From: Strigamia acuminata
Lineage: Eukaryota; Arthropoda; Chilopoda; Geophilomorpha; Linotaeniidae
Direction: 5' to 3'
Length of the DNA stretch: 64,000 bases
NCBI GenBank assembly: GCA_949358305.1
Contig: OX442317.1
Location: 14,512,491-14,576,490 of the forward strand
This document shows positions 30,003 through 51,570 of this stretch, in pieces. The position numbers and the translations under genes were made by a program. The notes beneath the pieces are model-generated. The model did no database searches. It was not told the origin of the DNA and was given only the letters and a program-made list of their open reading frames with translations. Within the stretch, counting starts at the first letter, position 1, and each line of letters starts with the position of its first letter.

Positions 30003-30149
30003 ACTGTGATGAGATCAAAAGTCTATTCTCCCAAATCATTGCTTGGATGTTGCTAAAACTTACATTAAAGCTTTCTACTAAGGTTTAAACACTATTTCAA
30101 AACATTCAGAGACATTGGTCTTGTGATGTTTGTGCTAAGTCAACTGTGA
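30003..30149. repeat. Single satellite monomer between elements F and B
   Basis: Exactly one 140-bp monomer plus seven bases, from ACTGTGATGAG to GTCAACTGTGA. It ends with GTGA, the left target-site duplication of B. Confidence 0.9.
30146..30149. repeat. Target-site duplication GTGA, left copy (element B)
   Basis: GTGA also follows the element at 36336-36339. The empty satellite site reads CAACTGTGATGAG. Confidence 0.9.
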
Positions 30150-31117
30150 TGTTGCAACTCGCCACTGCCGTGATGCGACGAGTTGTAACGCGGTGGGGAA
30201 TTATTGGCAAATTTCCCATAGGCCTATACTTTGCTTAGCTGAGAGGAGAAGTGAAGTAACTTGAGTTTCTGCCATGGATCTTGACTGTAGCTGCTCCAGG
30301 GAGTTTGGGGTTAACTCTCCCTACTCAATCATGCTTTGTGTTGAAGGAAATAAAGCTTGTTGTTGAAAATTCCACATAATGTTTTTATTCCTTTTTAAAA
30401 CATTAAAATGGAGGCAAAATCCAACATAACTACATCTAATTCTTCATAACAAGAGTGTAACAACTTCATAACAACAACAATTCTATAGCAACAACAAATT
30501 CATGAGGCACCTAGTGACTAAATTCATAAATAACATAAGTTAAAGCTTGCATTGTGCCTCATAATAGAGATAAAATCAACTAAAATTAACAGAAATCATT
30601 GGAAAGAATTATAACAAACAGAATAGGAATAAACTTAACTAAATATGCAAATAACGCATCTAAAGCAAGTCAAATACACTGTAAAAATGCATTAATTGCA
30701 ATCCATTACAAAATTAACAATTCCTTCTTTTCCAATGCACCTTTAAAGCAACTCAGATGCTTCAAACCCGTCATTCCGCCTTCACAACTGAACTGGGAAC
30801 AGGACAAGACTTAGAAATAGGTAAACATAGCATGAAAACATTGGAAAACAAGACTAAAAATTCCTAAACCTTGACCTTGTCATTCTAAGAGATAAAATAC
30901 CTAACAAACATTGTCTTTACTGAAAATTGGCACACAAAAAAGACATGTAAAATTCCTATTACAACAGAAAAAGATTAGATATTTGCTAAATAAATAATAC
31001 AATTATAAGACCGAAATTAGTAACTCTTCTTTACATTTTCGAACACATAAAATCAAACTACTATCAAATTGACGAGCAGTTGTGGTCTCTCTTTCCTCCT
31101 TTCTGTTGCTCGAAACA
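30150..31117 (-). repeat. 3' LTR of element B (968 bp)
   Basis: On the sense strand it runs from TGTTTCGAGC to GTTGCAACA. It has an AATAAA on the sense strand (30384-30389) and a CCAGTTCAGTTGTGAAGG stretch that resembles part of the D/E/F LTRs. Confidence 0.92.
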
Positions 31118-31210
31118 GAGATTGCCGCCGAAAAGAAAAGAAGGTGAAGAAGAACCTCTTAGCAATCTGAAAACTTCTCATCCACCTAGGATCAGCTCCC
31201 TAATGACTCC

Positions 31211-34198
31211 TTAAGGTAAGCGCAATTTTTTGCGGATCAAACTGGCCACCCATGGAGGTAATCTTCGATTCAAAATCGCTAAACTTAAATGTGCCGCTCC
31301 ATTAATTAGCTTTCTCTTGACTTCTATAGAATTGATTGATTTCTGAAAACAGGTACGACACGTCGGCTTGTATCTCTCTTCTCCTCCCACAACCTGAACT
31401 TGCGTTTCACCCGATATTCGTTTGGTGAACGACGCTTGGTTTCCACAAAAGTGGCATTTGGCATGAAGTTTGACAATAGTTTCCGCTAGTGGAATGAGAT
31501 TAGATACTGCCTTGAATTCCTGTCTCTTAAAATCACCATTTAAAGCGGCAATTATTACATTCTTTCCTTCGTTCGCCATTTTGTCGGAAAACGAATCGAT
31601 GTCTCCGAAAAATTGCCCTTCGTCGATACCTATCGTCTTGACCGACTCCGCAATTTTCTTGATTTCCTGTAACGACGCGACCCGAACCGCTGGACGTCGT
31701 TGTCCGGTGTGGCTAATCATTTCATCTTTACTATATCTAACGTCTGTCAAATGCTTAACAAGCAGGCAAGAATTTTCTTCTTCATTTCGGATTACATTAA
31801 GTAAAGCAGTAGTTTTTCCAGAAAACATTGGGCCAATTACTAAATGTATATTTCCCGTGGCCTTTGTGACTGCATTTGATCTTCTGTGCGAATTGGTGAG
31901 TTTCTTGCGACTCCATTTCAATATCTTCCTCCATTTACTTAAACCCTTTTCTTCATCTTTTTTGAAATTTTTTGGAAATTCTCCTTTCTTTTCCGTAGAC
32001 TCCAGTGTGTCAGGACTCTGAGAAATCGCCATCTTGCCCGACCTTATCCCTTTAAACGTCCGCTTTCCATCCATTTCCAATTCGATGGGGACGTCAGGAT
32101 GCCGTACCTCCAGCTCGCTAGAGCGGCTCGCGGCAAAACGAGAAGCGATGACGCCTTTTGCTCGTACTCCACCCTTTTCGCTTTTCTCGTCGGGCATTGA
32201 TGTGGAATTCGCCTGTCCAAACCCGCCTTTGTCCTTTTTTGAAGTGTTGAAAGTCATCTTCTTTCCAGAATCGATCGCCATACACGATACATCTCCCAGT
32301 GAGATATCGTCTTTGTAGATGGAAGGCTCTTTTGAGTTAATTTGTCCGTTTAAAATCCATCCAAAAACTGTTTTCATCATTCCTAATTCTGGACTAATTC
32401 TCTTCGTTCCCGCTTGAATTATTTTCCACCATGCTCCGCTTCCGATCAAGACATCTACCTCATCTGACACGGAGGGATGTGGTTCTGCCATCTCAAGATT
32501 AAACGACTTGATTTGTTGCAGCGTTTGGTGATCTATCACTCCCTTTATATTGGGAAGTGTGTCGGTATCAAGAGCAAATACAGACACTTTCTGCTTGTCG
32601 TGACGAGACTGCAACTCGAATCTAAACACGTCATGAGTTGTAGGAACTGGTTCCTTGTTCAGCAGACACTGGGTCATGGTGTGATACGTCTCAATCTTGT
32701 TTAGGTGTAATTTCTTTGCTAACCGCTTCGTAATATATGAACGATGACTACCCGGATCGAGTAATCCACGAACTGGGATTGTTTCGCCACTCTTTCGGAC
32801 GAACAATGCTGTGAAAACCATTAGCTGGACGTCACTTGAGACCGACAACGAGACGTTGGCGGAGACGTTCTCTTCTTTGGTATCAGGTGGCTTTTCCGCA
32901 TGACCTCTGTTACAAATTGAAGAATGGTGTCGACCACCGCATGATCGGCAACAAAATTTTACAGGGCAGTTACCCACTGTATGGCTTGGTCTCAGGCAAT
33001 TAAAGCATAGACGTTTTCGCTTAACGATGTCGTATTTCTCCGAAACTTCCAGATTTGCGTCGCAATTATTGTTGAAATGATCTCCTTCACAGAAGGCACA
33101 GATCAATTTCCGGACTGGACCTGATTTTGGTTTGAATGATTCTTTCGTATTGGACCCGAATGACGTATTTTGCGCAACCGCGCAAGATGACATGGTCCCT
33201 CGTAATTCTTCTTTTTGCTCTCTAGTTGCTGGTTTCTCACTCTTCTTGGTGACTTTCTGACTGGTAAATACGCTATCGTCTGATAATTCTGCTACTCTGA
33301 CTTCGCTTGCTACAAATTCGAGAAATAAATTAACGTTTTCCACGTTTCCTTTGTAAATCCTATGAAATCGTCTTCCCAATTCCGGTGGAAACTTCCGCAA
33401 TAATTCCGGGATTAGAAATAATCCAGTAGTCGTAACTGGGAACTTCAACTGTTCTAATGTTCGGAAAGCACCGGTGAGGGACGTCAATAGAGATTTTACT
33501 GGCTGGATTGGGTACAAATCTTTAACTGCTTCGGCTTCACGAATTTTCCTCGCCAGAGCGTTCTTTTGGGCTACTTCTGACCCAAAAAGTCCTTCTAAAC
33601 TGCTAAGTGCCATTAAATACGAATCGTTAGTAAGTGGGTACGACTTAATCGCCACTTCAGCTTCCCCGATACAGCTTGATTTAAGATATTGAAGTTTTTC
33701 GACGTTCGATAACTCGGCATCGGCGTCAACTGTGGTTGAAAACATATCCATGAAGCTCTTATACTCCATCGGATTCCCGTCGAATTTCTGCAGAGTCAAC
33801 TTTGGAAGCTTTGTAGTCTTCCGTGATATGATTGAGGAGTTGTTCAGAAATCCAGAATTCATTAGCGTATTTCCGCCGGGATGTGCCCCAAACTTATCCT
33901 GCATCTGTTTTGAAAATTTCGTCCTTTGCTTAAGAAGATTGACCTTAGTCCTAATGTCTTCGAGACGTCTCAAACTAAGCAGGTAATCTGAACGTTCTAT
34001 CTTGTCTTTAAAGACAGCGAGCTCATCAATAAGGTCACTCAACTGCGCATCTATTGTTGCGTGGAGAGCTTCAAGCTCACCCCCGTCGAGAACGTTTGCA
34101 GATGTCGAGAGCAGATCCTCTGCTCCTTGGGCCTTGGCTTGCCATTGTGTTTCTTTCTCTTCCGCTGCTTCCGCGGTCAAACCAGCTGCAGTTGCCAT
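31211..34198 (-). CDS. Gag-retropepsin-thymidine kinase fusion protein (element B)
   Basis: 995 codons, start at the first ATG after a 1169-nt leader. Order: helical N-terminus (about 40-100); BEL-type Gag core (about 130-300; KLTLQKFDGNPMEYKSF); zinc knuckles C367-C370-H374-C379, C398-C401-H406-C411 and C417-C420-H424-C429; retropepsin-like region with D481-P-G-S, an unusual P in the active motif; a charged low-complexity linker (about 625-780); then a whole type II thymidine kinase. The kinase has a P-loop GPMFSGKTT (789-797), DEGQFF (859-864, catalytic E860), zinc cysteines C915, C918, C947 and C950, and the GGEERYKPTC substrate loop. Family members convert thymidine and ATP to dTMP. It replaces RT, RNase H and integrase in the same frame, with no intron. 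Whether the kinase is active, or cleaved free by the protease, is inference. Confidence 0.93.
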   Translation of the reverse strand: MATAAGLTAEAAEEKETQWQAKAQGAEDLLSTSANVLDGGELEALHATIDAQLSDLIDELAVFKDKIERSDYLLSLRRLEDIRTKVNLLKQRTKFSKQMQDKFGAHPGGNTLMNSGFLNNSSIISRKTTKLPKLTLQKFDGNPMEYKSFMDMFSTTVDADAELSNVEKLQYLKSSCIGEAEVAIKSYPLTNDSYLMALSSLEGLFGSEVAQKNALARKIREAEAVKDLYPIQPVKSLLTSLTGAFRTLEQLKFPVTTTGLFLIPELLRKFPPELGRRFHRIYKGNVENVNLFLEFVASEVRVAELSDDSVFTSQKVTKKSEKPATREQKEELRGTMSSCAVAQNTSFGSNTKESFKPKSGPVRKLICAFCEGDHFNNNCDANLEVSEKYDIVKRKRLCFNCLRPSHTVGNCPVKFCCRSCGGRHHSSICNRGHAEKPPDTKEENVSANVSLSVSSDVQLMVFTALFVRKSGETIPVRGLLDPGSHRSYITKRLAKKLHLNKIETYHTMTQCLLNKEPVPTTHDVFRFELQSRHDKQKVSVFALDTDTLPNIKGVIDHQTLQQIKSFNLEMAEPHPSVSDEVDVLIGSGAWWKIIQAGTKRISPELGMMKTVFGWILNGQINSKEPSIYKDDISLGDVSCMAIDSGKKMTFNTSKKDKGGFGQANSTSMPDEKSEKGGVRAKGVIASRFAASRSSELEVRHPDVPIELEMDGKRTFKGIRSGKMAISQSPDTLESTEKKGEFPKNFKKDEEKGLSKWRKILKWSRKKLTNSHRRSNAVTKATGNIHLVIGPMFSGKTTALLNVIRNEEENSCLLVKHLTDVRYSKDEMISHTGQRRPAVRVASLQEIKKIAESVKTIGIDEGQFFGDIDSFSDKMANEGKNVIIAALNGDFKRQEFKAVSNLIPLAETIVKLHAKCHFCGNQASFTKRISGETQVQVVGGEERYKPTCRTCFQKSINSIEVKRKLINGAAHLSLAILNRRLPPWVASLIRKKLRLP

Positions 34199-34545
34199 TT
34201 ATTCTCGAGAAAGAGAGAATGAGAATAAAAATTCTATTCAACAACTCAATCACTGCTAATTAAATCCCCACGAATATTCTCCAAACTTCACAGACTCTTA
34301 CTTATACTTGCTTAACGTTAATTCAAATGCGGTGTGCAAATGAAAAACGACCTCGAAATAAAATGCTAAACTCAACTCCGAAATGCCACAGACAATCTGA
34401 CTTGACACACTATACGTAATACACTGGGACGGAATTATTGACCGCACAAATAAACTTATCCGCATAAATGTCTTGATAATTCCCCCAAAATGCACTTAGT
34501 TCGAAATTAATAATTAATATCTAACCGCACAACCGAGATAAATTA

Positions 34546-34717
34546 GTTATCTTTTACAATAACACTGCACAAAAGAGATAAATAGTTATATTTTACAATA
34601 ACCCCGCACAAAGAGATAAATAGTTATATTTTACAATAACCCCGCACAAAGAGATAATAGCTATAGTTTATAATAGCGCTGCACAAAAGAGATAATTAGC
34701 TATCATATACAATAGCT
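34546..34717 (-). repeat. Five-hairpin array in element B leader
   Basis: Mirror copy of 47015-47186 in element C; stems are listed there. Confidence 0.75.
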
Positions 34718-34928
34718 CCGCACTTAAGAGATAATAACTTTATATTTAAAATTATTGACATAAAAAACCCCTTTTAAACTCCCCAAATACAGCTCGAAAT
34801 TGGCAGAAACTTCCTTGAAAAATCAGATAAAGAATTAATTTAAATAAATATAATTCTTAAATTCTAACAGCAATTGAATTAAAATTAATCTTGTTCTTTT
34901 TTCAGCTGCAGATGAACTTGAAGATTGA

Positions 34929-34941
34929 CATTGCGTTGTGT
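34929..34941 (-). promoter_or_regulatory. Shared leader motif ACACAACGCAATG (element B)
   Basis: Minus-strand copy, 427 nt from the 5' LTR, identical to those in A, C, D and E. Confidence 0.55.
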
Positions 34942-35350
34942 TTCTCAAATTGTTGACCAGGAAATCGCTTGCTTGTCTCCTTATGTTGACCGCCACAGTA
35001 GAAAGACTCCGAACTCGTTACACTTGACATAAAATCCACTGACGAATCAACTCCCTGACGCCTGCGAAGGACGACACAGCACAAACACACTTCTGTCGCA
35101 ATTGGCGACAATAATCCAGTGGAAATAAATCGAAAAACGCGTCGCCACACACTTCACACCACGAAAATCGGCACCACACACTGCTTACTGCGAACTAGAT
35201 GCCACACACTGCCTCACTGTGAAGTCGGGAACACACACGCAAATCACCGTGAAATTGACGTCACACACCTGGCTAAAAATGCAATGACGTGCACTGAAAT
35301 CCACTGGAAGAACTGGACGAAAATCCTGGTTGGCAACAACAAAATCCTTG

Positions 35351-35363
35351 GGTCACGGTACCA
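35351..35363 (-). other. Primer-binding site of element B
   Basis: On the minus strand TGGTACCGTGACC lies four bases after the 5' LTR. It has one mismatch to the tRNA-His complement in the first twelve bases. Confidence 0.6.
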
Positions 35364-35367
35364 AAAA

Positions 35368-36335
35368 TGTTGCAACTCGCCACTGCCGTGATGCGACGAG
35401 TTGTAACGCGGTGGGGAATTATTGGCAAATTTCCCATAGGCCTATACTTTGCTTAGCTGAGAGGAGAAGTGAAGTAACTTGAGTTTCTGCCATGGATCTT
35501 GACTGTAGCTGCTCCAGGGAGTTTGGGGTTAACTCTCCCTACTCAATCATGCTTTGTGTTGAAGGAAATAAAGCTTGTTGTTGAAAATTCCACATAATGT
35601 TTTTATTCCTTTTTAAAACATTAAAATGGAGGCAAAATCCAACATAACTACATCTAATTCTTCATAACAAGAGTGTAACAACTTCATAACAACAACAATT
35701 CTATAGCAACAACAAATTCATGAGGCACCTAGTGACTAAATTCATAAATAACATAAGTTAAAGCTTGCATTGTGCCTCATAATAGAGATAAAATCAACTA
35801 AAATTAACAGAAATCATTGGAAAGAATTATAACAAATAGAATAGGAATAAACTTAACTAAATATGCAAATAACGCATCTAAAGCAAGTCAAATACACTGT
35901 AAAAATGCATTAATTGCAATCCATTACAAAATTAACAATTCCTTCTTTTCCAATGCACCTTTAAAGCAACTCAGATGCTTCAAACCCGTCATTCCGCCTT
36001 CACAACTGAACTGGGAACAGGACAAGACTTAGAAATAGGTAAACATAGCATGAAAACATTGGAAAACAAGACTAAAAATTCCTAAACCTTGACCTTGTCA
36101 TTCTAAGAGATAAAATACCTAACAAACATTGTCTTTACTGAAAATTGGCACACAAAAAAGACATGTAAAATTCCTATTACAACAGAAAAAGATTAGATAT
36201 TTGCTAAATAAATAATACAATTATAAGACCGAAATTAGTAACTCTTCTTTACATTTTCGAACACATAAAATCAAACTACTATCAAATTGACGAGCAGTTG
36301 TGGTCTCTCTTTCCTCCTTTCTGTTGCTCGAAACA
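35368..36335 (-). repeat. 5' LTR of element B (968 bp)
   Basis: Same ends and length as 30150-31117, with one base difference seen (35837). Satellite resumes directly at 36336. Confidence 0.92.
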
Positions 36336-39300
36336 GTGATGAGATCAAAAGTCTATTCTCCCAAATCATTGCTTAGATGTTGCTAAAACTTACATTGAAG
36401 CCGTCTACTAAGGTTTAAACACTATTTCAGAACATTTAGAGACATTGGTCTTGTGGTGTTTGTGCTAAGTCAACTGTGATGAGATCAAAAGTCTATTTTC
36501 CCAAATCATTTCTTGGATGTTGCTAAAACTTACATTAAAGCTTTCTACTAAGGTTTAAACACTATTTCAAAACATTCAGAGACATTAGTCTTGTGATGTT
36601 TGTGCTAAGTCAACTGTGATGAGATCAAAAGTCTATTCTCCCAAATCATTGCTTGGATGTTGCTAAAACTTATATTAAAGCTTTCTACTAAGGTTTAAAC
36701 ACTATTTCAAAACATTCAGAGACATTGGTCTTGTGATGTTTGTGCTAAGTCAACTGTGATGAGATCAAAAGTCTATTCTCCCAAATCATTGCTTGGATGT
36801 TGCTAAAACTTACATTGAAGCTTTCTACTAAGGTTTAAACACTATTTCAGAACATTCAGAAACATTGGTCTTGTGATGTTTGTGCTAAGTCAACTGTGAT
36901 GAGATCAAAAGTCTATTCTCCAAAATCATTGCTTGGATGTTGCTAAAACTTACATTGAAGCCTTCTACTAAGGTTTAAACACTATTTCAGAACATTCAGA
37001 CACATTGGTCTTGTGGTGTTTGTGCTAAGTCAACTGTGACGTCAAATGAGATCAAAAGTTTATTCTTCCAAATCATTGCTTGGATGTTGCTAAAACTTAC
37101 ATTGAAGCTTTCTACTAAGGTTTAAACACTATTTCAGAACATTCAGAGACATTGGTCTTGTGATGTTTGTGCTAAGTCAACTGTGATGAGATCAAAAGTC
37201 TATTCTCCAAAATCATTGCTTGGATGTTGCTAAAACTTACATTGAAGCCTTCTACTAAGGTTTAAACACTATTTCAGAACATTCAGACACATTGGTCTTG
37301 TGGTGTTTGTGCTAAGTCAACTGTGACGTCAAATGAGATCAAAAGTTTATTCGTTCAAATTATTGCTTGGATGTTGCTAAAACTTACATTGAAGCTTTCT
37401 ACTAAGGTTTAAACACTATTTCAGAACATTCAGAAACATTGGTCTTGTGATGTTTGTGCTAAGTCAACTGTGATGTCAAATGGGATCAAAAGTTTATTCT
37501 TCCAAATCATTGCTTGGATGTTGCTAAAACTTACATTGAAGCTTTCTACTAAGGTTTAAACACTATTTCAGAACATTCAGAAACATTGGTCTTGTGATGT
37601 TTGTGCTAAGTCAACTGTGATGTCAAATGGGATCAAAAGTTTATTCTTCCAAATCATTGCTTGGATGTTGCTAAAACTTACATTGAAGCCTTCTACTAAG
37701 GTTTAAACACTATTTCAGAACATTCAGAGACATTGGTCTTGTGAAGTTTGTGCTAAGTCAACTGTGATGTCAAATGAGATCAAAAGTTTATTCTTTCAAA
37801 TCATTGCTTGGATGTTGCTAAAACTTACATTAAAGCTTTCTACTAAGGTTTAAACACTATTTCAGAACATTTAGAGACATTGGTCTTGTGATGTTTGTGC
37901 TAAGTCAACTGTGATGAGATCAAAAGTCTATTCTCCAAAATCATTGCTTGGATGTTGCTAAAACTTACATTGAAGCCTTCTACTAAGGTTTAAACACTAT
38001 TTCAGAACATTCAGACACATTAGTCTTGTGGTGTTTGTGCTAAGTCAACTGTGACGTCAAATAAGATCAAAAGTTTATTCTTTCAAATCATTGCTTGGAT
38101 GTTGCTAAAACTTACATTAAAGCTTTCTACTAAGGTTTAAACACTATTTCAGAACATTCAGAGACATTGGTCTTGTGATGTTTGTGCTAAGTCAACTGTG
38201 ATGTCAAATGGGATCAAAAGTTTATTCTTCTAAATCATTGCTTGGATGTTGCTAAAACTTACATTGAAGCCTTCTACTAAGGTTTAAACACTATTTCAGA
38301 ACATTCAGAGACATTGGTCTTGTGATGTTTGTGCTAAGTCAACTGTGATGTCAAATGAGATCAAAAGTTTATTCTTTCAAATCATTGCTTGGATGTTGCT
38401 AAAACTTACATTAAAGCTTTCTACTAAAGTTTAAACACTATTTCAGAACATTCAGAGACATTGGTCTTGTGGTGTTTGTGCTGTCAACTGTGATGAGATC
38501 AAAAGTCTATTCTCCCAAATCATTGCTTAGATGTTGCTAAAACTTACATTGAAGCCTTCTACTAAGGTTTAAACACTATTTCAGAACATTCAGAGACATT
38601 GGTTTGTGGTGTTTGTGCTAAGTCAACTGTGATGTCAAATGAGATCAAAAGTTTATTCTTTCAAATTATTGCTTGGATGTTGCTAAAACTAACATTGAAG
38701 CCTTCTACTAAGGTTTAAACACTATTTCAGAACATTCAGAGACATTGGTCTTGTGGTGTTTGTGCTAAGTCAACTGTGATGAGATCAAAAGTCTATTTTC
38801 CCAAATCATTTCTTGGATGTTGCTAAAACTTACATTAAAGCTTTCTACTAAGGTTTAAACATTATTTCAGAACATTCAGAGACATTGGTCTTGTGATGTT
38901 TGTGCTAAGTCAACTGTGATGAGATCAACAGTCTATTCTCCCAAATCATTGCTTGGATGTTGCTAAAACTTACATTAAAGCTTTCTACTAAGGTTTAAAC
39001 ACTATTTCAAAACATTCAGAGACATTGGTCTTGTGATGTTTGTGCTAAGTCAACTGTGATGAGATCAAAAGTCTATTCTCCCAAATCATTGCTTGGATGT
39101 TGCTAAAACTTACATTGAAACCTTCTACTAAGGTTTAAACACTATTTCAGAACATTCAGAGACATTGGTTTGTGGTGTTTGTGCTAAGTCAACTGTGATG
39201 TCAAATGAGATCAAAAATTTATTCTTTCAAATTATTGCTTGGATGTTGCTAACACTTACATTGAAGCCTTCTACTAAGTTTTAAACACTATTTCTAAACA

Positions 39301-42300
39301 TTCAGAGACATTGGTCTTGTGGTGTTTGTGCTAAGTCAACTGTGACGTCAAATGAGATCAAAAGTTTATTCGTTCAAATTATTGCTTGGATGTTGCTAAA
39401 ACTTACATTGAAGCTTTCTACTAAGGTTTAAACACTATTTCAGAACATTCAGAAACATTGGTCTTGTGATGTTTGTGCTAAGTCAACTGTGATGTCAAAT
39501 GGGATCAAAAGTTTATTCTTCCAAATCATTGCTTGGATGTTGCTAAAACTTACATTGAAGCTTTCTACTAAGGTTTAAACACTATTTCAGAACATTCAGA
39601 AACATTGGTCTTGTGATGTTTGTGCTAAATCAACTGTGATGTCAAATGGGATCAAAAGTTTATTCTTCCAAATCATTGCTTGGATGTTGCTAAAACTTAC
39701 ATTGAAGCCTTCTACTAAGGTTTAAACACTATTTCAGAACATTCAGAGACATTGGTCTTGTGAAGTTTGTGCTAAGTCAACTGTGATGTCAAATGAGATC
39801 AAAAGTTTATTCTTTCAAATCATTGCTTGGATGTTGCTAAAACTTACATTAAAGCTTTCTACTAAGGTTTAAACACTATTTCAGAACATTTAGAGACATT
39901 GGTCTTGTGATGTTTGTGCTAAGTCAACTGTGATGAGATCAAAAGTCTATTCTCCAAAATCATTGCTTGGATGTTGCTAAAACTTACATTGAAGCCTTCT
40001 ACTAAGGTTTAAACACTATTTCAGAACATTCAGACACATTGGTCTTGTGGTGTTTGTGCTAAGTCAACTGTGACGTCAAATAAGATCAAAAGTTTATTCT
40101 TTCAAATCATTGCTTGGATGTTGCTAAAACTTACATTAAAGCTTTCTACTAAGGTTTAAACACTATTTCAGAACATTCAGAGACATTGGTCTTGTGATGT
40201 TTGTGCTAAGTCAACTGTGATGTCAAATGGGATCAAAAGTTTATTCTTCTAAATCATTGCTTGGATGTTGCTAAAACTTACATTGAAGCCTTCTACTAAG
40301 GTTTAAACACTATTTCAGAACATTCAGAGACATTGGTCTTGTGATGTTTGTGCTAAGTCAACTGTGATGTCAAATGAGATCAAAAGTTTATTCTTTCAAA
40401 TCATTGCTTGGATGTTGCTAAAACTTACATTAAAGCTTTCTACTAAAGTTTAAACACTATTTCAGAACATTCAGAGACATTGGTCTTGTGGTGTTTGTGC
40501 TGTCAACTGTGATGAGATCAAAAGTCTATTCTCCCAAATCATTGCTTAGATGTTGCTAAAACTTACATTGAAGCCTTCTACTAAGGTTTAAACACTATTT
40601 CAGAACATTCAGAGACATTGGTTTGTGGTGTTTGTGCTAAGTCAACTGTGATGTCAAATGAGATCAAAAGTTTATTCTTTCAAATTATTGCTTGGATGTT
40701 GCTAAAACTAACATTGAAGCCTTCTACTAAGGTTTAAACACTATTTCAGAACATTCAGAGACATTGGTCTTGTGGTGTTTGTGCTAAGTCAACTGTGATG
40801 AGATCAAAAGTCTATTTTCCCAAATCATTTCTTGGATGTTGCTAAAACTTACATTAAAGCTTTCTACTAAGGTTTAAACATTATTTCAGAACATTCAGAG
40901 ACATTGGTCTTGTGATGTTTGTGCTAAGTCAACTGTGATGAGATCAACAGTCTATTCTCCCAAATCATTGCTTGGATGTTGCTAAAACTTACATTAAAGC
41001 TTTCTACTAAGGTTTAAACACTATTTCAAAACATTCAGAGACATTGGTCTTGTGATGTTTGTGCTAAGTCAACTGTGATGAGATCAAAAGTCTATTCTCC
41101 CAAATCATTGCTTGGATGTTGCTAAAACTTACATTGAAACCTTCTACTAAGGTTTAAACACTATTTCAGAACATTCAGAGACATTGGTTTGTGGTGTTTG
41201 TGCTAAGTCAACTGTGATGTCAAATGAGATCAAAAATTTATTCTTTCAAATTATTGCTTGGATGTTGCTAACACTTACATTGAAGCCTTCTACTAAGGTT
41301 TAAACACTATTTCTAAACATTCAGAGACATTGGTCTTGTGGTGTTTGTGCTAAGTCAACTGTGACGTCAAATGAGATCAAAAGTTTATTCTTTCAAATTA
41401 TTGCTTGGATGTTGCTAAAACTTACATTGAAGCTTTCTACTAAGGTTTAAACACTATTTCAGAACATTCAGAAACATTGGTCTTGTGATGTTTGTGCTAA
41501 GTCAACTGTGATGTCAAATGGGATCAAAAGTTTATTCTTCCAAATCATTGCTTGGATGTTGCTAAAACTTACATTGAAGCCTTCTACTAAGGTTTAAACA
41601 CTATTTCAGAACATTCAGAGACATTGGTCTTGTGATGTTTGTGCTAAGTCAACTGTGATGTCAAATGAGATCAAAAGTTTATTCTTTCAAATCATTGCTT
41701 GGATGTTGCTAAAACTTACATTAAAGCTTTCTACTAAGGTTTAAACACTATTTCAGAACATTTAGAGACATTGGTCTTGTGATGTTTGTGCTAAGTCAAC
41801 TGTGATGAGATCAAAAGTCTATTCTCCAAAATCATTGCTTGGATGTTGCTAAAACTTACATTGAAGCCTTCTACTAAGGTTTAAACACTATTTCAGAACA
41901 TTCAGACACATTGGTCTTGTGGTGTTTGTGCTAAGTCAACTGTGACGTCAAATAAGATCAAAAGTTTATTCTTTCAAATCATTGCTTGGATGTTGCTAAA
42001 ACTTACATTAAAGCTTTCTACTAAGGTTTAAACACTATTTCAGAACATTCAGAGACATTGGTCTTGTGATGTTTGTGCTAAGTCAACTGTGATGAGATCA
42101 AAAGTCTATTCTCCCAAATCATTGCTTGGATGTTGCTAAAACTTACATTGAAGCCTTCTACTAAGGTTTAAACACTATTTCAGAACATTCAGAGACATTG
42201 GTCTTGTGATGTTTGTGCTAAGTCAACTGTGATGAGATCAAAAGTCTATTCTCCCAAATCATTGCTTGGATGTTGCTAAAACTTACATTGAAGCCTTCTA

Positions 42301-45300
42301 CTAAGGTTTAAACACTATTTCAGAACATTCAGAGACATTGGTTTGTGGTGTTTGTGCTAAGTCAACTGTGATGTCAAATGAGATCAAAAATTTATTCTTT
42401 CAAATTATTGCTTGGATGTTGCTAACACTTACATTGAAGCCTTCTACTAAGGTTTAAACACTATTTCAGAACATTTAGAGACATTGGTCTTGTGATGTTT
42501 GTGCTAAGTCAACTGTGATGTCAAATGAGATCAAAAGTTTATTCTTTCAAATCATTGCTTGGATGTTGCTAAAACTTACATTAAAGCCTTCTACTAAGGT
42601 TTAAACACTATTTCAGAACATTCAGAGACATTGGTCTTGTGATGTTTGTGCTAAGTCAACTGTGATGAGATCAAAAGTCTATTCTCCAAAATCATTGCTT
42701 AAATGTTGCTAAAACTTACATTGAAGCCTTCTACTAAGGTTTAAACACTATTTCAGAACATTCAGACACATTGGTCTTGTGGTGTTTGTGCTAAGTCAAC
42801 TGTGACGTCAAATGAGATCAAAAGTTTATTCTTTCAAATTATTGCTTGGATGTTGCTAAAACTTACATTGAAGCTTTCTACTAAGGTTTAAACACTATTT
42901 CAGAACATTCAGAAACATTGGTCTTGTGATGTTTGTGCTAAGTCAACTGTGATGTCAAATGGGATCAAAAGTTTATTCTTCCAAATCATTGCTTGGATGT
43001 TGCTAAAACTTACATTGAAGCCTTCTACTAAGGTTTAAACACTATTTCAGAACATTCAGAGACATTGGTCTTGTGATGTTTGTGCTAAGTCAACTGTGAT
43101 GTCAAATGAGATCAAAAGTTTATTCTTTCAAATCATTGCTTGGATGTTGCTAAAACTTACATTAAAGCTTTCTACTAAGGTTTAAACACTATTTCAGAAC
43201 ATTTAGAGACATTGGTCTTGTGATGTTTGTGCTAAGTCAACTGTGATGAGATCAAAAGTCTATTTTTCAAAATCATTGCTTGGATGTTGCTAAAACTTAC
43301 ATTGAAGCCTTCTACTAAGGTTTAAACACTATTTCAGAACATTCAGACACATTGGTCTTGTGGTGTTTGTGCTAAGTCAACTGTGACGTCAAATAAGATC
43401 AAAAGTTTATTCTTTCAAATCATTGCTTGGATGTTGCTAAAACTTACATTAAAGCTTTCTACTAAGGTTTAAACACTATTTCAGAACATTCAGAGACATT
43501 GGTCTTGTGATGTTTGTGCTAAGTCAACTGTGATGAGATCAAAAGTCTATTCTCCCAAATCATTGCTTGGATGTTGCTAAAACTTACATTGAAGCCTTCT
43601 ACTAAGGTTTAAACACTATTTCAGAACATTCAGAGACATTGGTTTGTGGTGTTTGTGCTAAGTCAACTGTGATGTCAAATGAGATCAAAAGTTTATTCTT
43701 TCAAATTATTGCTTGGATGTTGCTAAAACTTACATTGAAGCCTTCTACTAAGGTTTAAACACTATTTCTGAACATTCAGAGACATTGGTCTTGTGGTGTT
43801 TGTGCTAAGTCAACTGTGATGTCAAATGAGATCAAAAGTTTATTCTTTCAAATTATTGCTTGGATGTTGCTAAAACTAACATTGAAGCCTTCTACTAAGG
43901 TTTAAACACTATTTCAGAACATTCAGAGACATTGGTTTGTGGTGTTTGTGCTAAGTCAACTGTGATGTCAAATGAGATCAAAAGTTTATTCTTTCAAATT
44001 ATTGCTTGGATGTTGCTAAAACTTACATTAAAGCTTTCTACTAAGGTTTAAACACTATTTCAGAACATTCAGAGACATTGGTCTTGTGATGTTTGTGCTA
44101 AGTCAACTGTGATGAGATCAAAAGTCTATTCTCCCAAATCATTGCTTGGATGTTGCTAAAACTTACATTGAAGCCTTCTACTAAGGTTTAAACACTATTT
44201 CAGAACATTCAGAGACATTGGTTTGTGGTGTTTGTGCTAAGTCAACTGTGATGTCAAATGAGATCAAAAATTTATTCTTTCAAATTATTGCTTGGATGTT
44301 GCTAACACTTACATTGAAGCCTTCTACTAAGGTTTAAACACTATTTCAGAACATTCAGAGACATTGGTCTTGTGATGTTTGTGCTAAGTCAACTGTGATG
44401 TCAAATGAGATCAAAAGTTTATTCTTTCAAATCATTGCTTGGATGTTGCTAAAACTTACATTAAAGCCTTCTACTAAGGTTTAAACACTATTTCAGAACA
44501 TTCAGAGACATTGGTCTTGTGATGTTTGTGCTAAGTCAACTGTGATGAGATCAAAAGTCTATTCTCCAAAATCATTGCTTGGATGTTGCTAAAACTTACA
44601 TTGAAGCCTTCTACTAAGGTTTAAACACTATTTCAGAACATTCAGAGACATTGGTTTGTGGTGTTTGTGCTAAGTCAACTGTGATGTCAAATGAGATCAA
44701 AAGTTTATTCTTTCAAATTATTGCTTGGATGTTGCTAAAACTTACATTGAAGCCTTCTACTAAGGTTTAAACACTATTTCTGAACATTCAGAGACATTGG
44801 TCTTGTGGTGTTTGTGCTAAGTCAACTGTGATGTCAAATGAGATCAAAAGTTTATTCTTTCAAATTATTGCTTGGATGTTGCTAAAACTTACATTGAAGC
44901 CTTCTACTAAGGTTTAAACACTATTTCAGAACATTCAGAGACATTGGTTTGTGGTGTTTGTGCTAAGTCAACTGTGATGTCAAATGAGATCAAAAGTTTA
45001 TTCTTTCAAATTATTGCTTGGATGTTGCTAAAACTTACATTGAAGCCTTCTACTAAGGTTTAAACACTATTTCTGAACATTCAGAGACATTGGTCTTGTG
45101 GTGTTTGTGCTAAGTCAACTGTGATGTCAAATGAGATCAAAAGTTTATTCTTTCAAATTATTGCTTGGATGTTGCTAAAACTAACATTGAAGCCTTCTAC
45201 TAAGGTTTAAACACTATTTCAGAACATTCAGAGACATTGATCTTGTGGTGTTTGTGCTAAGTCAACTGTGATGAGATCAAAAGTCTATTCTCCCAAATCA

Positions 45301-45408
45301 TTTCTTGGATGTTGCTAAAACTTACATTAAAGCTTTCTACTAAGGTTTAAACACTATTTCAGAACATTCAGAGACATTGGTCTTGTGATGTTTGTGCTAA
45401 GTCAACTG
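36336..45408. repeat. Satellite array between elements B and C
   Basis: About 63 head-to-tail monomers. The short form is 140 bp (CTGTGATGAGATC). The long form is 147 bp, with seven extra bases (CTGTGATGTCAAATGAGATC). A further variant has lost CT in GGTCTTGTGG. All share GGTTTAAACACTATTTC. A 2019-bp block of 14 monomers is present twice in tandem (about 37321-39339 and 39340-41358): six rare variants recur exactly 2019 bp apart, for example TGAAGTTTG, ACTAAAGTTTAAAC and AGATCAACAG. No coding capacity. Confidence 0.97.
45405..45408. repeat. Target-site duplication ACTG, left copy (element C)
   Basis: ACTG precedes the 5' LTR of C and recurs after the 3' LTR at 51571-51574. Confidence 0.9.
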
Positions 45409-46364
45409 TGTTTCGAGCAACAGAAAGGAGGAAAGAGAGACCACAACTGCTCGTCAATTTGATAGTAGTTTGATTTTATGTGTTTGAAAATGTAAAGAAG
45501 AGTTTCTAATTTCGGTCTTATAATTGTATTATTTATTTAGCAAATATCTAATTTTTTTCTGTTGTAATAGGAATTTTACATGTCTTTTTTGTGTGCCAAT
45601 TTTCAGTAAAGACAATGTTTGTTAGGTATTTTATCTCTTAGAATGACAAGGTCAAGGTTTAGGAATTTTTAGTCTTGTTTTCCAATGTTTTCATGCTATG
45701 TTTACCTATTTCTAAGTCTTGTCCTGTTCCCAGTTCAGTTGTGAAGGCGGAATGACGGGTTTGAAGCATCTGAGTTGCTTTAAAGGTGCATTAGAAAAGA
45801 AGGAATTGTTAATTTTGTAATGGATTGCAATTAATGCATTTTTACAGTGTATTTGACTTGCTTTAGATGCGTTATTTGCATATTTAGTTAAGTTTATTCC
45901 TATTCTATTTGTTATAATTCTTTCCAATGATTTCTGTTAATTTTAGTTGATTTTATCTCTATTATGAGGCACAATGCAAGCTTTAACTTATGTTATTTAT
46001 GAATTTAGTCACTAGGTGCCTCATGAATTTGTTGTTGCTATAGAATTGTTGTTGTTATGAAGTTGTTACACTCTTGTTATGAAGAATTAGATGTAGTTAA
46101 GTTGAATTTGCCTCCATGTTAATGTTTTGAAATGATTAAAAGCATTATCTGGATTTTTCTACACAAAGGTTTATTTTATTCAACATCCAACATGTGTGAG
46201 TAGGGAGATTTAACCCCAAACTCCCTGGAGCAGCTCCCCACAAGATCCAGTGCAGAAACTCAAGTCAACTCATTTCTCCTCTCAGTATAGGCCTATGGGA
46301 AATTTGCCAAGAATTCCCCATCGCGTTACAACTCGTCGCATCACGGCAGTGGCGAGTTGCAACA
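45409..46364 (+). repeat. 5' LTR of element C (956 bp)
   Basis: TGTTTCGAGC to GTTGCAACA. Twelve bases shorter than the B LTR, with a diverged stretch around 46080-46300. It has ATTAAA at 46135-46140 where B has AATAAA nearby. Confidence 0.92.
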
Positions 46365-46368
46365 TTTT

Positions 46369-46381
46369 TGGTACCGTGACC
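46369..46381 (+). other. Primer-binding site of element C
   Basis: TGGTACCGTGACC, four bases after the 5' LTR, the same as in B; one mismatch to the tRNA-His complement. Confidence 0.6.
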
Positions 46382-46463
46382 CAAGGATTTTGTTGTTGCC
46401 AACCAGGATTTTCGTCCAGTTCTTCCAGTGGATTTCAGTGCACGTCATTGCATTTTTAGCCAG

Positions 46464-46586
46464 GTGTGTGACGTCAATTTCACGGTGATTTGCGTGTGTG
46501 TTCCCGACTTCACAGTGAGGCAGTGTGTGGCATCTAGTTCGCAGTAAGCAGTGTGTGGTGCCGATTTTCGTGGTGTGAAGTGTGTG
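46464..46586 (+). repeat. GTGTGTG tandem units in element C leader
   Basis: GTGTGTG starts at 46464, 46494, 46523, 46551 and 46580, a period of 28-30 bases. The bases between units vary but often contain TTCAC-GTGA-like short stems. A CRE-like TGACGTCA lies at 46469-46476. The mirror copy in B is 35146-35268. Confidence 0.7.
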
Positions 46587-46790
46587 GCGACGCGTTTTTC
46601 GATTTATTTCCACTGGATTATTGTCGCCAATTGCGACAGAAGTGTGTTTGTGCTGTGTCGTCCTTCGCAGGCGTCAGGGAGTTGATTCGTCAGTGGATTT
46701 TATGTCAAGTGTAACGAGTTCGGAGTCTTTCTACTGTGGCGGTCAACATAAGGAGACAAGCAAGCGATTTCCTGGTCAACAATTTGAGAA

Positions 46791-46803
46791 ACACAACGCA
46801 ATG
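46791..46803 (+). promoter_or_regulatory. Shared leader motif ACACAACGCAATG (element C)
   Basis: Identical in A, B, D and E. Here its ATG opens a short frame that stops after nine codons, well upstream of gag. Confidence 0.55.
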
Positions 46804-47014
46804 TCAATCTTCAAGTTCATCTGCAGCTGAAAAAAGAACAAGATTAATTTTAATTCAATTGCTGTTAGAATTTAAGAATTATATTTATTTAAATTAATTC
46901 TTTATCTGATTTTTCAAGGAAGTTTCTGCCAATTTCGAGCTGTGTTTGGGGAGTTTAAAAGGGGTTTTTTATGTCAATAATTTTAAATATCAAGTTATTA
47001 TCTCTTAAGTGCGG

Positions 47015-47186
47015 AGCTATTGTATATGATAGCTAATTATCTCTTTTGTGCAGCGCTATTATAAACTATAGCTATTATCTCTTTGTGCGGGGTTATTGTA
47101 AAATATAACTATTTATCTCTTTGTGCGGGGTTATTGTAAAATATAACTATTTATCTCTTTTGTGCAGTGTTATTGTAAAAGATAAC
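47015..47186 (+). repeat. Five-hairpin array in element C leader
   Basis: Units of about 38 bases. Stem arms are AGCTAT/ATAGCT (47015-47020, 47029-47034), GCTAT/ATAGC (47055-47059, 47068-47072), and GTTAT/ATAAC three times (47092-47096 with 47105-47109; 47130-47134 with 47143-47147; 47169-47173 with 47182-47186). The C-G to T-A swap keeps the pairing. Between hairpins the text is nearly constant (TTATCTCTTTTGTGC). The array ends about 350 bases before the gag start. Confidence 0.78.
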
Positions 47187-47533
47187 TAATTTATCTCGGT
47201 TGTGCGGTTAGATATTAATTATTAATTTCGAACTAAGTGCATTTTGGGGGAATTATCAAGACATTTATGCGGATAAGTTTATTTGTGCGGTCAATAATTC
47301 CGTCCCAGTGTATTACGTATAGTGTGTCAAGTCAGATTGTCTGTGGCATTTCGGAGTTGAGTTTAGCATTTTATTTCGAGGTCGTTTTTCATTTGCACAC
47401 CGCATTTGAATTAACGTTAAGCAAGTATAAGTAAGAGTCTGTGAAGTTCGGAGAATATTCGTGGGGATTTAATTAGCAGTGATTGAGTTGTTGAATAGAA
47501 TTTTTATTCTCATTCTCTCTTTCTCGAGAATAA

Positions 47534-50521
47534 ATGGCAACTGCAGCTGGTTTGACCGCGGAAGCAGCGGAAGAGAAAGAAACACAATGGCAAGCCAAGG
47601 CCCAAGGAGCAGAGGATCTGCTCTCGACATCTGCAAACGTTCTCGACGGGGGTGAGCTTGAAGCTCTCCACGCAACAATAGATGCGCAGTTGAGTGACCT
47701 TATTGATGAGCTCGCTGTCTTTAAAGACAAGATAGAACGTTCAGATTACCTGCTTAGTTTGAGACGTCTCGAAGACATTAGGACTAAGGTCAATCTTCTT
47801 AAGCAAAGGACGAAATTTTCAAAACAGATGCAGGATAAGTTTGGGGCACATCCCGGCGGAAATACGCTAATGAATTCTGGATTTCTGAACAACTCCTCAA
47901 TCATATCACGGAAGACTACAAAGCTTCCAAAGTTGACTCTGCAGAAATTCGACGGGAATCCGATGGAGTATAAGAGCTTCATGGATATGTTTTCAACCAC
48001 AGTTGACGCCGATGCCGAGTTATCGAACGTCGAAAAACTTCAATATCTTAAATCAAGCTGTATCGGGGAAGCTGAAGTGGCGATTAAGTCGTACCCACTT
48101 ACTAACGATTCGTATTTAATGGCACTTAGCAGTTTAGAAGGACTTTTTGGGTCAGAAGTAGCCCAAAAGAACGCTCTGGCGAGGAAAATTCGTGAAGCCG
48201 AAGCAGTTAAAGATTTGTACCCAATCCAGCCAGTAAAATCTCTATTGACGTCCCTCACCGGTGCTTTCCGAACATTAGAACAGTTGAAGTTCCCAGTTAC
48301 GACTACTGGATTATTTCTAATCCCGGAATTATTGCGGAAGTTTCCACCGGAATTGGGAAGACGATTTCATAGGATTTACAAAGGAAACGTGGAAAACGTT
48401 AATTTATTTCTCGAATTTGTAGCAAGCGAAGTCAGAGTAGCAGAATTATCAGACGATAGCGTATTTACCAGTCAGAAAGTCACCAAGAAGAGTGAGAAAC
48501 CAGCAACTAGAGAGCAAAAAGAAGAATTACGAGGGACCATGTCATCTTGCGCGGTTGCGCAAAATACGTCATTCGGGTCCAATACGAAAGAATCATTCAA
48601 ACCAAAATCAGGTCCAGTCCGGAAATTGATCTGTGCCTTCTGTGAAGGAGATCATTTCAACAATAATTGCGACGCAAATCTGGAAGTTTCGGAGAAATAC
48701 GACATCGTTAAGCGAAAACGTCTATGCTTTAATTGCCTGAGACCAAGCCATACAGTGGGTAACTGCCCTGTAAAATTTTGTTGCCGATCATGCGGTGGTC
48801 GACACCATTCTTCAATTTGTAACAGAGGTCATGCGGAAAAGCCACCTGATACCAAAGAAGAGAACGTCTCCGCCAACGTCTCGTTGTCGGTCTCAAGTGA
48901 CGTCCAGCTAATGGTTTTCACAGCATTGTTCGTCCGAAAGAGTGGCGAAACAATCCCAGTTCGTGGATTACTCGATCCGGGTAGTCATCGTTCATATATT
49001 ACGAAGCGGTTAGCAAAGAAATTACACCTAAACAAGATTGAGACGTATCACACCATGACCCAGTGTCTGCTGAACAAGGAACCAGTTCCTACAACTCATG
49101 ACGTGTTTAGATTCGAGTTGCAGTCTCGTCACGACAAGCAGAAAGTGTCTGTATTTGCTCTTGATACCGACACACTTCCCAATATAAAGGGAGTGATAGA
49201 TCACCAAACGCTGCAACAAATCAAGTCGTTTAATCTTGAGATGGCAGAACCACATCCCTCCGTGTCAGATGAGGTAGATGTCTTGATCGGAAGCGGAGCA
49301 TGGTGGAAAATAATTCAAGCGGGAACGAAGAGAATTAGTCCAGAATTAGGAATGATGAAAACAGTTTTTGGATGGATTTTAAACGGACAAATTAACTCAA
49401 AAGAGCCTTCCATCTACAAAGACGATATCTCACTGGGAGATGTATCGTGTATGGCGATCGATTCTGGAAAGAAGATGACTTTCAACACTTCAAAAAAGGA
49501 CAAAGGCGGGTTTGGACAGGCGAATTCCACATCAATGCCCGACGAGAAAAGCGAAAAGGGTGGAGTACGAGCAAAAGGCGTCATCGCTTCTCGTTTTGCC
49601 GCGAGCCGCTCTAGCGAGCTGGAGGTACGGCATCCTGACGTCCCCATCGAATTGGAAATGGATGGAAAGCGGACGTTTAAAGGGATAAGGTCGGGCAAGA
49701 TGGCGATTTCTCAGAGTCCTGACACACTGGAGTCTACGGAAAAGAAAGGAGAATTTCCAAAAAATTTCAAAAAAGATGAAGAAAAGGGTTTAAGTAAATG
49801 GAGGAAGATATTGAAATGGAGTCGCAAGAAACTCACCAATTCGCACAGAAGATCAAATGCAGTCACAAAGGCCACGGGAAATATACATTTAGTAATTGGC
49901 CCAATGTTTTCTGGAAAAACTACTGCTTTACTTAATGTAATCCGAAATGAAGAAGAAAATTCTTGCCTGCTTGTTAAGCATTTGACAGACGTTAGATATA
50001 GTAAAGATGAAATGGTTAGCCACACCGGACAACGACGTCCAGCGGTTCGGGTCGCGTCGTTACAGGAAATCAAGAAAATTGCGGAGTCGGTCAAGACGAT
50101 AGGTATCGACGAAGAGCAATTTTTCGGAGACATCGATTCGTTTTCCGACAAAATGGCGAACGAAGGAAAGAATGTAATAATTGCCGCTTTAAATGGTGAT
50201 TTTAAGAGACAGGAATTCAAGGCAGTATCTAATCTCATTCCACTAGCGGAAACTATTGTCAAACTTCATGCCAAATGCCACTTTTGTGGAAACCAAGCGT
50301 CGTTCACCAAACGAATATCGGGTGAAACGCAAGTTCAGGTTGTGGGAGGAGAAGAGAGATACAAGCCAACGTGTCGTACCTGTTTTCAGAAATCAATCAA
50401 TTCTATAGAAGTCAAGAGAAAGCTAATTAATGGAGCGGCACATTTAAGTTTAGCGATTTTGAATCGAAGATTACCTCCATGGGTGGCCAGTTTGATCCGC
50501 AAAAAATTGCGCTTACCTTAA
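47534..50521 (+). CDS. Gag-retropepsin-thymidine kinase fusion protein (element C)
   Basis: Same 995-residue layout as in element B: Gag core, three zinc knuckles (residues 367-429), retropepsin-like D481, linker and type II thymidine kinase (about 781-955). I see two amino-acid differences from B: I828V and G861E. The second lies in the highly conserved DEGQFF motif beside the catalytic glutamate (E860), caused by one G-to-A change at 50115, so this copy's kinase may be weak or inactive. The P-loop and the four zinc cysteines are intact. The frame ends 93 bases before the 3' LTR, leaving no room for pol. Confidence in the family call is high; activity is unknown. Confidence 0.93.
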   Translation: MATAAGLTAEAAEEKETQWQAKAQGAEDLLSTSANVLDGGELEALHATIDAQLSDLIDELAVFKDKIERSDYLLSLRRLEDIRTKVNLLKQRTKFSKQMQDKFGAHPGGNTLMNSGFLNNSSIISRKTTKLPKLTLQKFDGNPMEYKSFMDMFSTTVDADAELSNVEKLQYLKSSCIGEAEVAIKSYPLTNDSYLMALSSLEGLFGSEVAQKNALARKIREAEAVKDLYPIQPVKSLLTSLTGAFRTLEQLKFPVTTTGLFLIPELLRKFPPELGRRFHRIYKGNVENVNLFLEFVASEVRVAELSDDSVFTSQKVTKKSEKPATREQKEELRGTMSSCAVAQNTSFGSNTKESFKPKSGPVRKLICAFCEGDHFNNNCDANLEVSEKYDIVKRKRLCFNCLRPSHTVGNCPVKFCCRSCGGRHHSSICNRGHAEKPPDTKEENVSANVSLSVSSDVQLMVFTALFVRKSGETIPVRGLLDPGSHRSYITKRLAKKLHLNKIETYHTMTQCLLNKEPVPTTHDVFRFELQSRHDKQKVSVFALDTDTLPNIKGVIDHQTLQQIKSFNLEMAEPHPSVSDEVDVLIGSGAWWKIIQAGTKRISPELGMMKTVFGWILNGQINSKEPSIYKDDISLGDVSCMAIDSGKKMTFNTSKKDKGGFGQANSTSMPDEKSEKGGVRAKGVIASRFAASRSSELEVRHPDVPIELEMDGKRTFKGIRSGKMAISQSPDTLESTEKKGEFPKNFKKDEEKGLSKWRKILKWSRKKLTNSHRRSNAVTKATGNIHLVIGPMFSGKTTALLNVIRNEEENSCLLVKHLTDVRYSKDEMVSHTGQRRPAVRVASLQEIKKIAESVKTIGIDEEQFFGDIDSFSDKMANEGKNVIIAALNGDFKRQEFKAVSNLIPLAETIVKLHAKCHFCGNQASFTKRISGETQVQVVGGEERYKPTCRTCFQKSINSIEVKRKLINGAAHLSLAILNRRLPPWVASLIRKKLRLP

Positions 50522-50614
50522 GGAGTCATTAGGGAGCTGATCCTAGGTGGATGAGAAGTTTTCAGATTGCTAAGAGGTTCTTCTTCACCTTCTTTTCTTT
50601 TCGGCGGCAATCTC
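50522..50614 (+). other. Element C 3' untranslated region with pre-LTR box
   Basis: Ninety-three bases ending in a TTCTTTTCTTTTCGGCGGC stretch just before the LTR. The mirror copy is 31118-31210 in B. It is pyrimidine-rich and has no purine tract at the LTR junction. Confidence 0.7.
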
Positions 50615-51570
50615 TGTTTCGAGCAACAGAAAGGAGGAAAGAGAGACCACAACTGCTCGTCAATTTGATAGTAGTTTGATTTTATGTGTTTGAAAATGTA
50701 AAGAAGAGTTTCTAATTTCGGTCTTATAATTGTATTATTTATTTAGCAAATATCTAATTTTTTTCTGTTGTAATAGGAATTTTACATGTCTTTTTTGTGT
50801 GCCAATTTTCAGTAAAGACAATGTTTGTTAGATATTTTATCTCTTAGAATGACAAGGTCAAGGTTTAGGAATTTTTAGTCTTGTTTTCCAATGTTTTCAT
50901 GCTATGTTTACCTATTTCTAAGTCTTGTCCTGTTCCCAGTTCAGTTGTGAAGGCGGAATGACGGGTTTGAAGCATCTGAGTTGCTTTAAAGGTGCATTAG
51001 AAAAGAAGGAATTGTTAATTTTGTAATGGATTGCAATTAATGCATTTTTACAGTGTATTTGACTTGCTTTAGATGCGTTATTTGCATATTTAGTTAAGTT
51101 TATTCCTATTCTATTTGTTATAATTCTTTCCAATGATTTCTGTTAATTTTAGTTGATTTTATCTCTATTATGAGGCACAATGCAAGCTTTAACTTATGTT
51201 ATTTATGAATTTAGTCACTAGGTGCCTCATGAATTTGTTGTTGCTATAGAATTGTTGTTGTTATGAAGTTGTTACACTCTTGTTATGAAGAATTAGATGT
51301 AGTTAAGTTGAATTTGCCTCCATGTTAATGTTTTGAAATGATTAAAAGCATTATCTGGATTTTTCTACACAAAGGTTTATTTTATTCAACATCCAACATG
51401 TGTGAGTAGGGAGATTTAACCCCAAACTCCCTGGAGCAGCTCCCCACAAGATCCAGTGCAGAAACTCAAGTCAACTCATTTCTCCTCTCAGTATAGGCCT
51501 ATGGGAAATTTGCCAAGAATTCCCCATCGCGTTACAACTCGTCGCATCACGGCAGTGGCGAGTTGCAACA
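50615..51570 (+). repeat. 3' LTR of element C (956 bp)
   Basis: Same ends and length as 45409-46364; followed directly by ACTG and satellite. Confidence 0.92.

Follow-up and report, generated by a model that had tools for sequence, protein, structure and literature searches.

A non-autonomous BEL/Pao derivative of Strigamia acuminata encodes a predicted thymidine kinase fused to Gag and protease

Non-autonomous retroelements that keep gag and their long terminal repeats (LTRs) and need pol in trans are known, among them TR-GAG and BARE-2, and are not known to carry a nucleotide-salvage enzyme. Retroelements depend on a supply of deoxynucleotides (dNTPs), and a cell can restrict retroelements by keeping its dNTP pools low, in mammals through SAMHD1. 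Several retroviruses encode a dUTPase. According to PMC5408684, three bdelloid LTR lineages also encode a dUTPase, that is, a nucleotide-pool enzyme within the polyprotein of elements that retain reverse transcriptase and integrase. BEL/Pao elements (Belpaoviridae) have LTRs ending in TG..CA, make 4-bp target-site duplications, and encode a DUF1759 Gag with zinc knuckles, a retropepsin with a D-x-G-S-like motif, reverse transcriptase, RNase H (the Peptidase_A17 region) and integrase. The present study describes an LTR element in a 64,000-nt stretch of the Strigamia acuminata genome (hereafter the window; assembly GCA_949358305.1, contig OX442317.1, positions 14,512,491 to 14,576,490, forward strand). 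It shares with BEL/Pao the LTR ends, the 4-bp duplication, the Gag and the retropepsin, and differs in having a thymidine kinase (TK) in place of reverse transcriptase, RNase H and integrase. Like TR-GAG and BARE-2 it keeps gag and LTRs and would need pol in trans, with TK standing at the pol position.

A sequence-only reading of the window had proposed that a BEL/Pao retroelement captured a TK as one in-frame Gag-protease-TK fusion. The 995-codon frame was recovered exactly at 31211-34198, from an ATG on the minus strand; on the strand that reading was silent, as it was on the missing polymerase and non-autonomy, the several families and the related kinases on other repeats. The BEL-type Gag was borne out by a DUF1759 match and three zinc knuckles, and the retropepsin-like motif by LLDPGS at residue 479 (Table 1; coordinates are positions in the window, residue numbers those of the copy 1 frame). 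Pfam matches to Asp_protease_2 and DUF1758 in the protease region (residues 475-619) were weak and below the cut-off in copy 1; in the second copy of the window DUF1758 scored 22.5 bits, just over its cut-off of 22 bits.

The kinase matches the whole TK profile (PF00265, residues 782-951; 176 of 176 positions, 184.7 bits, E 1.8e-54), and among solved structures human TK1 is its best relative (154 bits). An AlphaFold2 model of the TK part, for which six viral-contig kinases and the TK of the other copy in the window were aligned to it, had a predicted local distance difference test (pLDDT) score of 88.8. The first structure match of this model was again human TK1 (1w4r; template modelling (TM) score 0.86, 43% identity), with the type II TK fold, and every one of the 50 structure matches listed was a thymidine kinase. 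Chance can be excluded. The P-loop (GPMFSGKT at 789), DEGQFF (at 859) and the zinc cysteines (two CxxC pairs) are present in copy 1 as had been described, and all seven LTR-type sequences examined retain the P-loop, the catalytic Glu and the two CxxC pairs. Fold, P-loop, DEGQFF, zinc pairs and thymidine loop are those of TK1-type kinases such as human TK1. The predicted enzyme differs from them in being a near-C-terminal domain of a 995-aa polyprotein, whereas the host carries its TK1 as a gene of its own with seven exons. At the level of sequence and modelled structure, the frame is confirmed as an in-frame fusion in which a complete TK1-type kinase follows a BEL-type Gag and a retropepsin.

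BEL elements elsewhere in this genome indicate the position at which the kinase joined. The Gag-protease of all three BEL frames read (L084-L086) aligns to the family A frame over residues ~103-624 with 24-28% identity (best E 1e-53), which together with the domains supports the in-frame capture by a BEL element. This homology stops just past an FGW..G motif, where the protease region closes. No more than about 40 residues beyond, all three BEL frames come to a common WELE stretch, which we take to be the start of BEL reverse transcriptase. Past the same point the TK element has a 155-residue linker, then the kinase, then a 40-residue tail. The claim that the kinase occupies the place at which reverse transcriptase would be expected to start is right, with the correction that the linker stands between.

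Neither reverse transcriptase nor RNase H nor integrase was detected by Pfam in the 995-aa frame. The internal part of copy 1, 4250 bases from LTR to LTR, holds no second frame of at least 250 aa. Because it is without these three enzymes, the element is not expected to copy itself alone; by its sequence, it is a non-autonomous BEL/Pao derivative and no autonomous member. The LTR pairs of copies 1 and 2 have one mismatch each, and these near-identical LTRs indicate recent insertion. For the leader motif (Table 1), the exact sequence GGTACCGTGA occurs three times in the window against 0.01 expected. The copy 2 frame is identical to that of copy 1 at 993 of 995 residues and may be kinase-dead, as DEGQFF reads DEEQFF there. 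The two copies differ at three coding positions (one synonymous, two not), all of them within the TK domain, and agree throughout the remaining 820 codons; this pattern hints at recombination or gene conversion between them.

Table 1. Features of the Gag-protease-TK element in the window (dN/dS, ratio of nonsynonymous to synonymous substitution rates; A, B and C, element families; D and E, further LTR-type sequences).
Feature	Positions	Strand	Basis
Copy 1, Gag-protease-TK LTR element, family A, 6186 bp	30150..36335	-	LTR pair, target-site duplication, open frame
Target-site duplication GTGA, copy 1	36336..36339 and 30146..30149	.	4 bp flanking both ends
5′ LTR, copy 1, 968 nt, TGTT...AACA	35368..36335	-	1 mismatch to 3′ LTR
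Leader motif TTTTTGGTACCGTGACCC, candidate primer-binding-site position, directly inside 5′ LTR	35350..35367	-	near-identical in families A, B, C
39-bp tandem repeat, untranslated leader	34525..34734	.
Single open frame, 995 aa, Gag-protease-linker-TK-tail	31211..34198	-	ATG start; frame scan and Pfam
DUF1759 Gag domain, residues 139-282	33353..33784	-	Pfam E 4.8e-15
Three zinc knuckles, residues 367-429	32912..33100	-	motif reading
Retropepsin-like protease, LLDPGS motif, residues ~455-625	32324..32836	-	Pfam, BEL alignment, motif, dN/dS
Linker, fast-evolving, residues 626-780	31859..32323	-	dN/dS 0.37 (A-D), 0.59-0.65 (B-E)
TK1-type thymidine kinase, residues 781-955	31334..31858	-	Pfam, solved relatives, AlphaFold2 model, structure matches
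C-terminal tail, residues 956-995	31214..31333	-	families A and B 52.5% identical
CTTTTCGGCGGCAATC, polypurine-tract position, before 3′ LTR	31120..31135	-	similar motif in families B, C
3′ LTR, copy 1, 968 nt	30150..31117	-	LTR comparison
Copy 2 of the element, 6162 bp, target-site duplication ACTG at 45405-45408 and 51571-51574	45409..51570	+
5′ LTR, copy 2, 956 nt	45409..46364	+	1 mismatch to 3′ LTR
995-aa frame, copy 2, DEGQFF reads DEEQFF	47534..50521	+	motif reading
TK domain, copy 2	49874..50398	+	Pfam
3′ LTR, copy 2, 956 nt	50615..51570	+	LTR comparison
140/147-bp satellite array carrying insertions, interrupted by copy 2	36339..63975	.

Throughout the genome (237.5 Mb, 157 contigs) 150 of 205 TK candidates were scored, in a score-ranked list that favours intact copies and gives counts as lower bounds. 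At least 92 of these matches are of the LTR type, a class set by frame length and score with the DNA of representatives read (L001-L014, L027 and L028). Their frames have 995 (32 matches), 1013 (34), 1009 (13) or 1002 codons (5), the remaining eight being shortened or broken; 84 of the 92 are thus uninterrupted and are found on many contigs. Four further 995-codon matches have exactly the score of copy 2, which suggests that they carry DEEQFF too. The LTRs measure 968/956 nt in family A, 1358 nt in family B and about 715 nt in family C; those of both family B copies compared are identical in pairs (no mismatches), and 4-bp target duplications flank the LTR copies compared.

Selection on the fused protein was assessed in pairwise comparisons. 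Families A and B are two deep lineages that share only 52% of residues along the full polyprotein and 56% within the kinase, and their synonymous sites are saturated in most domains, so the fusion is old. Due to this saturation, the A-B dN/dS was not computable for most domains. For the kinase, dN/dS was 0.119 between A and D (bootstrap 0.07-0.19, dS 1.0), 0.171 (0.08-0.33) and 0.172 (0.08-0.31) between E and the B copies L012 and L013, respectively, and 0.140 (0.04-0.36) between two B copies, at synonymous divergences of 0.23 to 1.0 across these pairs. Corresponding values for the linker were 0.370, 0.653, 0.591 and 0.576. The protease gave 0.055-0.081 in the three divergent pairs (A-D, L012-E and L013-E), and between A and D the zinc knuckles gave 0.038 and the comparable part of Gag 0.273. 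The A-A and A-C pairs have too few changes to weigh (A-C kinase 0.209, 0-0.86). On these sequence comparisons, the kinase is shown to be under purifying selection, less constrained than the protease and zinc knuckles and more than the linker and the Gag part. This intermediate constraint makes it look like a protein in use.

The sequence-only reading had also proposed a TK tree that includes the host TK1. The host gene, sought with two codon patterns that are absent from 15 mobile kinases read beforehand, is present at C9:8319200 with seven exons and introns of 54-67 nt (gene model by eye). Its 215-aa product is 60% identical to human TK1 and 43% to the window kinase. Matches to the dNK family also exist in the genome, and a bantam microRNA that scored above its cut-off marks the host as an arthropod. 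A second TK1-like gene, L089 (C9:7414710), is decayed; it was not used, and neither were L087, a decayed B-type kinase, and L088, a stray motif match. In the trees the LTR kinases group together (support 96/93 untrimmed, 81/77 trimmed), host TK1 groups with human TK1 (97/99), and a single clade of mobile kinases is weakly favoured (62/60; 68/56). The untrimmed tree was built without L037, the twin of L036, and the trimmed tree without both. The approximately unbiased (AU) test rejected none of seven arrangements at 5%: p was 0.0675 for A-D with the host, 0.073 for B-E with the host, 0.535 for all LTR kinases with the host and 0.375 for B-E with the T repeats described below.

A prokaryotic or viral origin of the kinase was considered and rejected. 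Viral-contig TKs are 27-39% identical and one bacterial and one archaeal TK 34%, against 43-45% for host and human TK1; the scans for these relatives used short motifs and reach part of them only. An intron-bearing TK1 already belongs to the host and is only about 43% identical to the window kinase, which makes the capture old. The tail common to A and B points to one capture rather than two. These comparisons speak for an old capture, probably a single one, of an animal-type TK.

We consider it rather probable that these elements form a stable non-autonomous BEL/Pao lineage whose polymerase was swapped for a linker and a TK, the kinase raising deoxythymidine triphosphate (dTTP) for reverse transcription. 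Specifically, Gag and protease would have been retained while reverse transcriptase, RNase H and integrase were exchanged. The element RNA would make Gag-protease-TK, and autonomous BEL elements of the same genome would supply reverse transcriptase and integrase in trans. Inside the particle, or after release by the protease, the kinase would convert thymidine to thymidine monophosphate (dTMP) and so raise dTTP where or when host TK1 is low. By analogy with the dUTPases of other retroelements, the benefit would go to the element. This dTTP role is one that we infer, backed by the purifying selection on the kinase.

Possible polymerase donors are abundant: a genome-wide search for Peptidase_A17, the BEL polymerase domain, gave 1068 candidates, of which 150 were scored, and open frames of ~1740-1800 codons contain many of these. 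A partner sought by Gag similarity was not obtained. The 71 of 1267 candidates scored, beyond which closer autonomous relatives may lie, have frame lengths that fit Gag-protease-TK or shortened copies, and the three odd ones that were read are decayed copies. In the window itself, a BEL pol frame occupies 26062-28377 and is followed by a segment at 28394-29976. Units related to this segment (88-97%, inverse orientation) recur at 8959, 16008, 17746 and 24840 within 8959-26073, which resembles two tandem LTR elements without long frames.

Several points weigh against a lineage maintained by dTTP supply. The selection proves use of the protein, not dTTP as the reason. Kinase activity, transcript and particle are predictions from the DNA sequence. 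No autonomous element with the same LTR was found among the best 40 of 101 LTR candidates. Copy 2 has DEEQFF yet young LTRs; therefore, not every copy would need its own kinase. Besides, flanks are repeated (34 distinct among 40 3′ ends read), which shows that part of the copy number arose by array duplication rather than transposition.

Those 40 ends comprise 20 of the 30 family A and 20 of the 46 family B copies listed, and 19 of them (14 of the 34 distinct ends) lie in the 140/147-bp satellite. The end of L042 enters the leader of a neighbouring element and has no true flank, and in that of L068 the match to the satellite starts only at base 18. Of the five junctions read first, four lay close together within one stretch of the satellite unit, but the 40 further ends vary, and a single satellite insertion site was rejected. 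When 79 of the 92 LTR-type copies were plotted, each large contig had most of its copies in a single region (C1 64.6-66.5 Mb, C5 12.3-15.5, C8 6.8-7.5, C9 0.34-0.71, C11 0.12-0.57 and C13 7.9-10.3); one other copy is on C4, and small contigs hold the remainder. Insertion is thus regionally clustered and not site-specific. The satellite unit is about as long as the DNA of a single nucleosome, and the array is possibly centromeric; its units form a higher-order repeat of ~2019 bp. On C9, family A LTRs about 3094 nt apart (946672/949767, 999148/1002242 and 1006324/1009418; usual spacing 5.2 kb) are perhaps shortened copies, and in the neighbouring L082 (C9:1046000-1051300) the TK is cut short.

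Three repeat types besides the LTR element carry related kinases. The 150 scored TK candidates included at least 40 kinases of ~190 codons (T190), with equal or near-equal scores and spread over contigs, 13 of a related group (T216) and 5 of another (T221); these groups were classed by frame length and their representatives by alignment. T190 and T216 kinases sit in repeated units of more than 9 kb, are about 78-80% identical to each other and give a dN/dS of 0.112 (0.06-0.18). Apart from this pair, kinases of different repeat types are 42-56% identical, only slightly closer than to host TK1 (42-47%). Ten frames adjoining T190, T216 and T221 kinases gave no Pfam domain over the cut-off, and no clean terminal repeats were found in these repeats. 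A 1.8-kb segment is inverted between two T190 copies. The three T190 copies read (L023, L024 and L025) have an intact kinase and are 94-99% identical. The repeat whose kinase measures 210-220 aa and which also has tandem repeats (five scored copies) is represented by L015 (C3:1.82 Mb) and L016 (C13:1.19 Mb), between which homology stops sharply at L015:6123 / L016:6250.

A similar scenario, one enzyme type on different repeats of one genome, is described in PMC5408684, where bdelloid LTR elements and Terminons share additional open frames. The enzymes there are an esterase and an exonuclease, here a thymidine kinase. On a bolder and less probable reading, TK may be common property of the mobile elements of this genome. 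The old BEL lineage would then have become a satellite-like partner that provides Gag, protease and dTTP synthesis and borrows polymerase, and its kinase may feed reverse transcription of both partners in cells low in dTTP.

Other explanations appear weaker. The kinase fold might be kept for structure or localisation, aiding Gag assembly, with catalysis secondary. TK1 enzymes form tetramers, TK is fused to Gag in intact copies, copy 2 retains the fold despite DEEQFF, and families A and B share 52.5% of residues in the tail that follows TK. However, the P-loop, catalytic Glu, zinc pairs and thymidine-binding loop persist at 56% identity, none of which a scaffold needs, so that we regard this role as unlikely. 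Less likely still is a service to the host, in which the copies would form a TK reserve for tissues without TK1. The many intact copies and the further TK repeats would suit such a reserve, but the host has an intact-looking TK1 (on the model made by eye) and dNK-family matches; moreover, the LTR copies cluster and Gag and protease are constrained too, which points to selection at the level of the element. Non-autonomous elements can carry unused captured genes, and the kinase might likewise be a neutral passenger hitch-hiking on a recently amplified element. A kinase dN/dS of 0.12-0.17 at dS of 0.23 to 1.0 speaks against drift for the whole lineage, so this very improbable account is already contradicted unless the dN/dS is an artefact. 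Although satellite regions are hard to assemble, a false TK-Gag join through assembly or annotation has almost no chance of being true, as 84 uninterrupted frames, spread over many contigs and over families with different LTRs, have the same join. Both refutations named by the sequence-only reading fail, the profile match to TK being overwhelming and the join no assembly error.

The sequence-only reading knew of no described LTR element with this layout. In one open-access paper library, a scope outside which lie subscription journals, Repbase, Dfam and the protein databases, no LTR element with a thymidine kinase was found. The word 'kinase' is absent from the main texts of PMC3118150 and PMC5408684.

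A retroelement with its own selected, predicted dTTP-making enzyme would offer a natural test system for whether nucleotide supply limits retrotransposition. The lineage suggests that a non-autonomous element can trade its polymerase for a metabolic enzyme and persist. Furthermore, the related kinases point to a pool of enzyme genes, here a salvage kinase, borne by several mobile repeats. If the sharing of the kinase proves true, it would let both partners copy themselves in cells with little dTTP.

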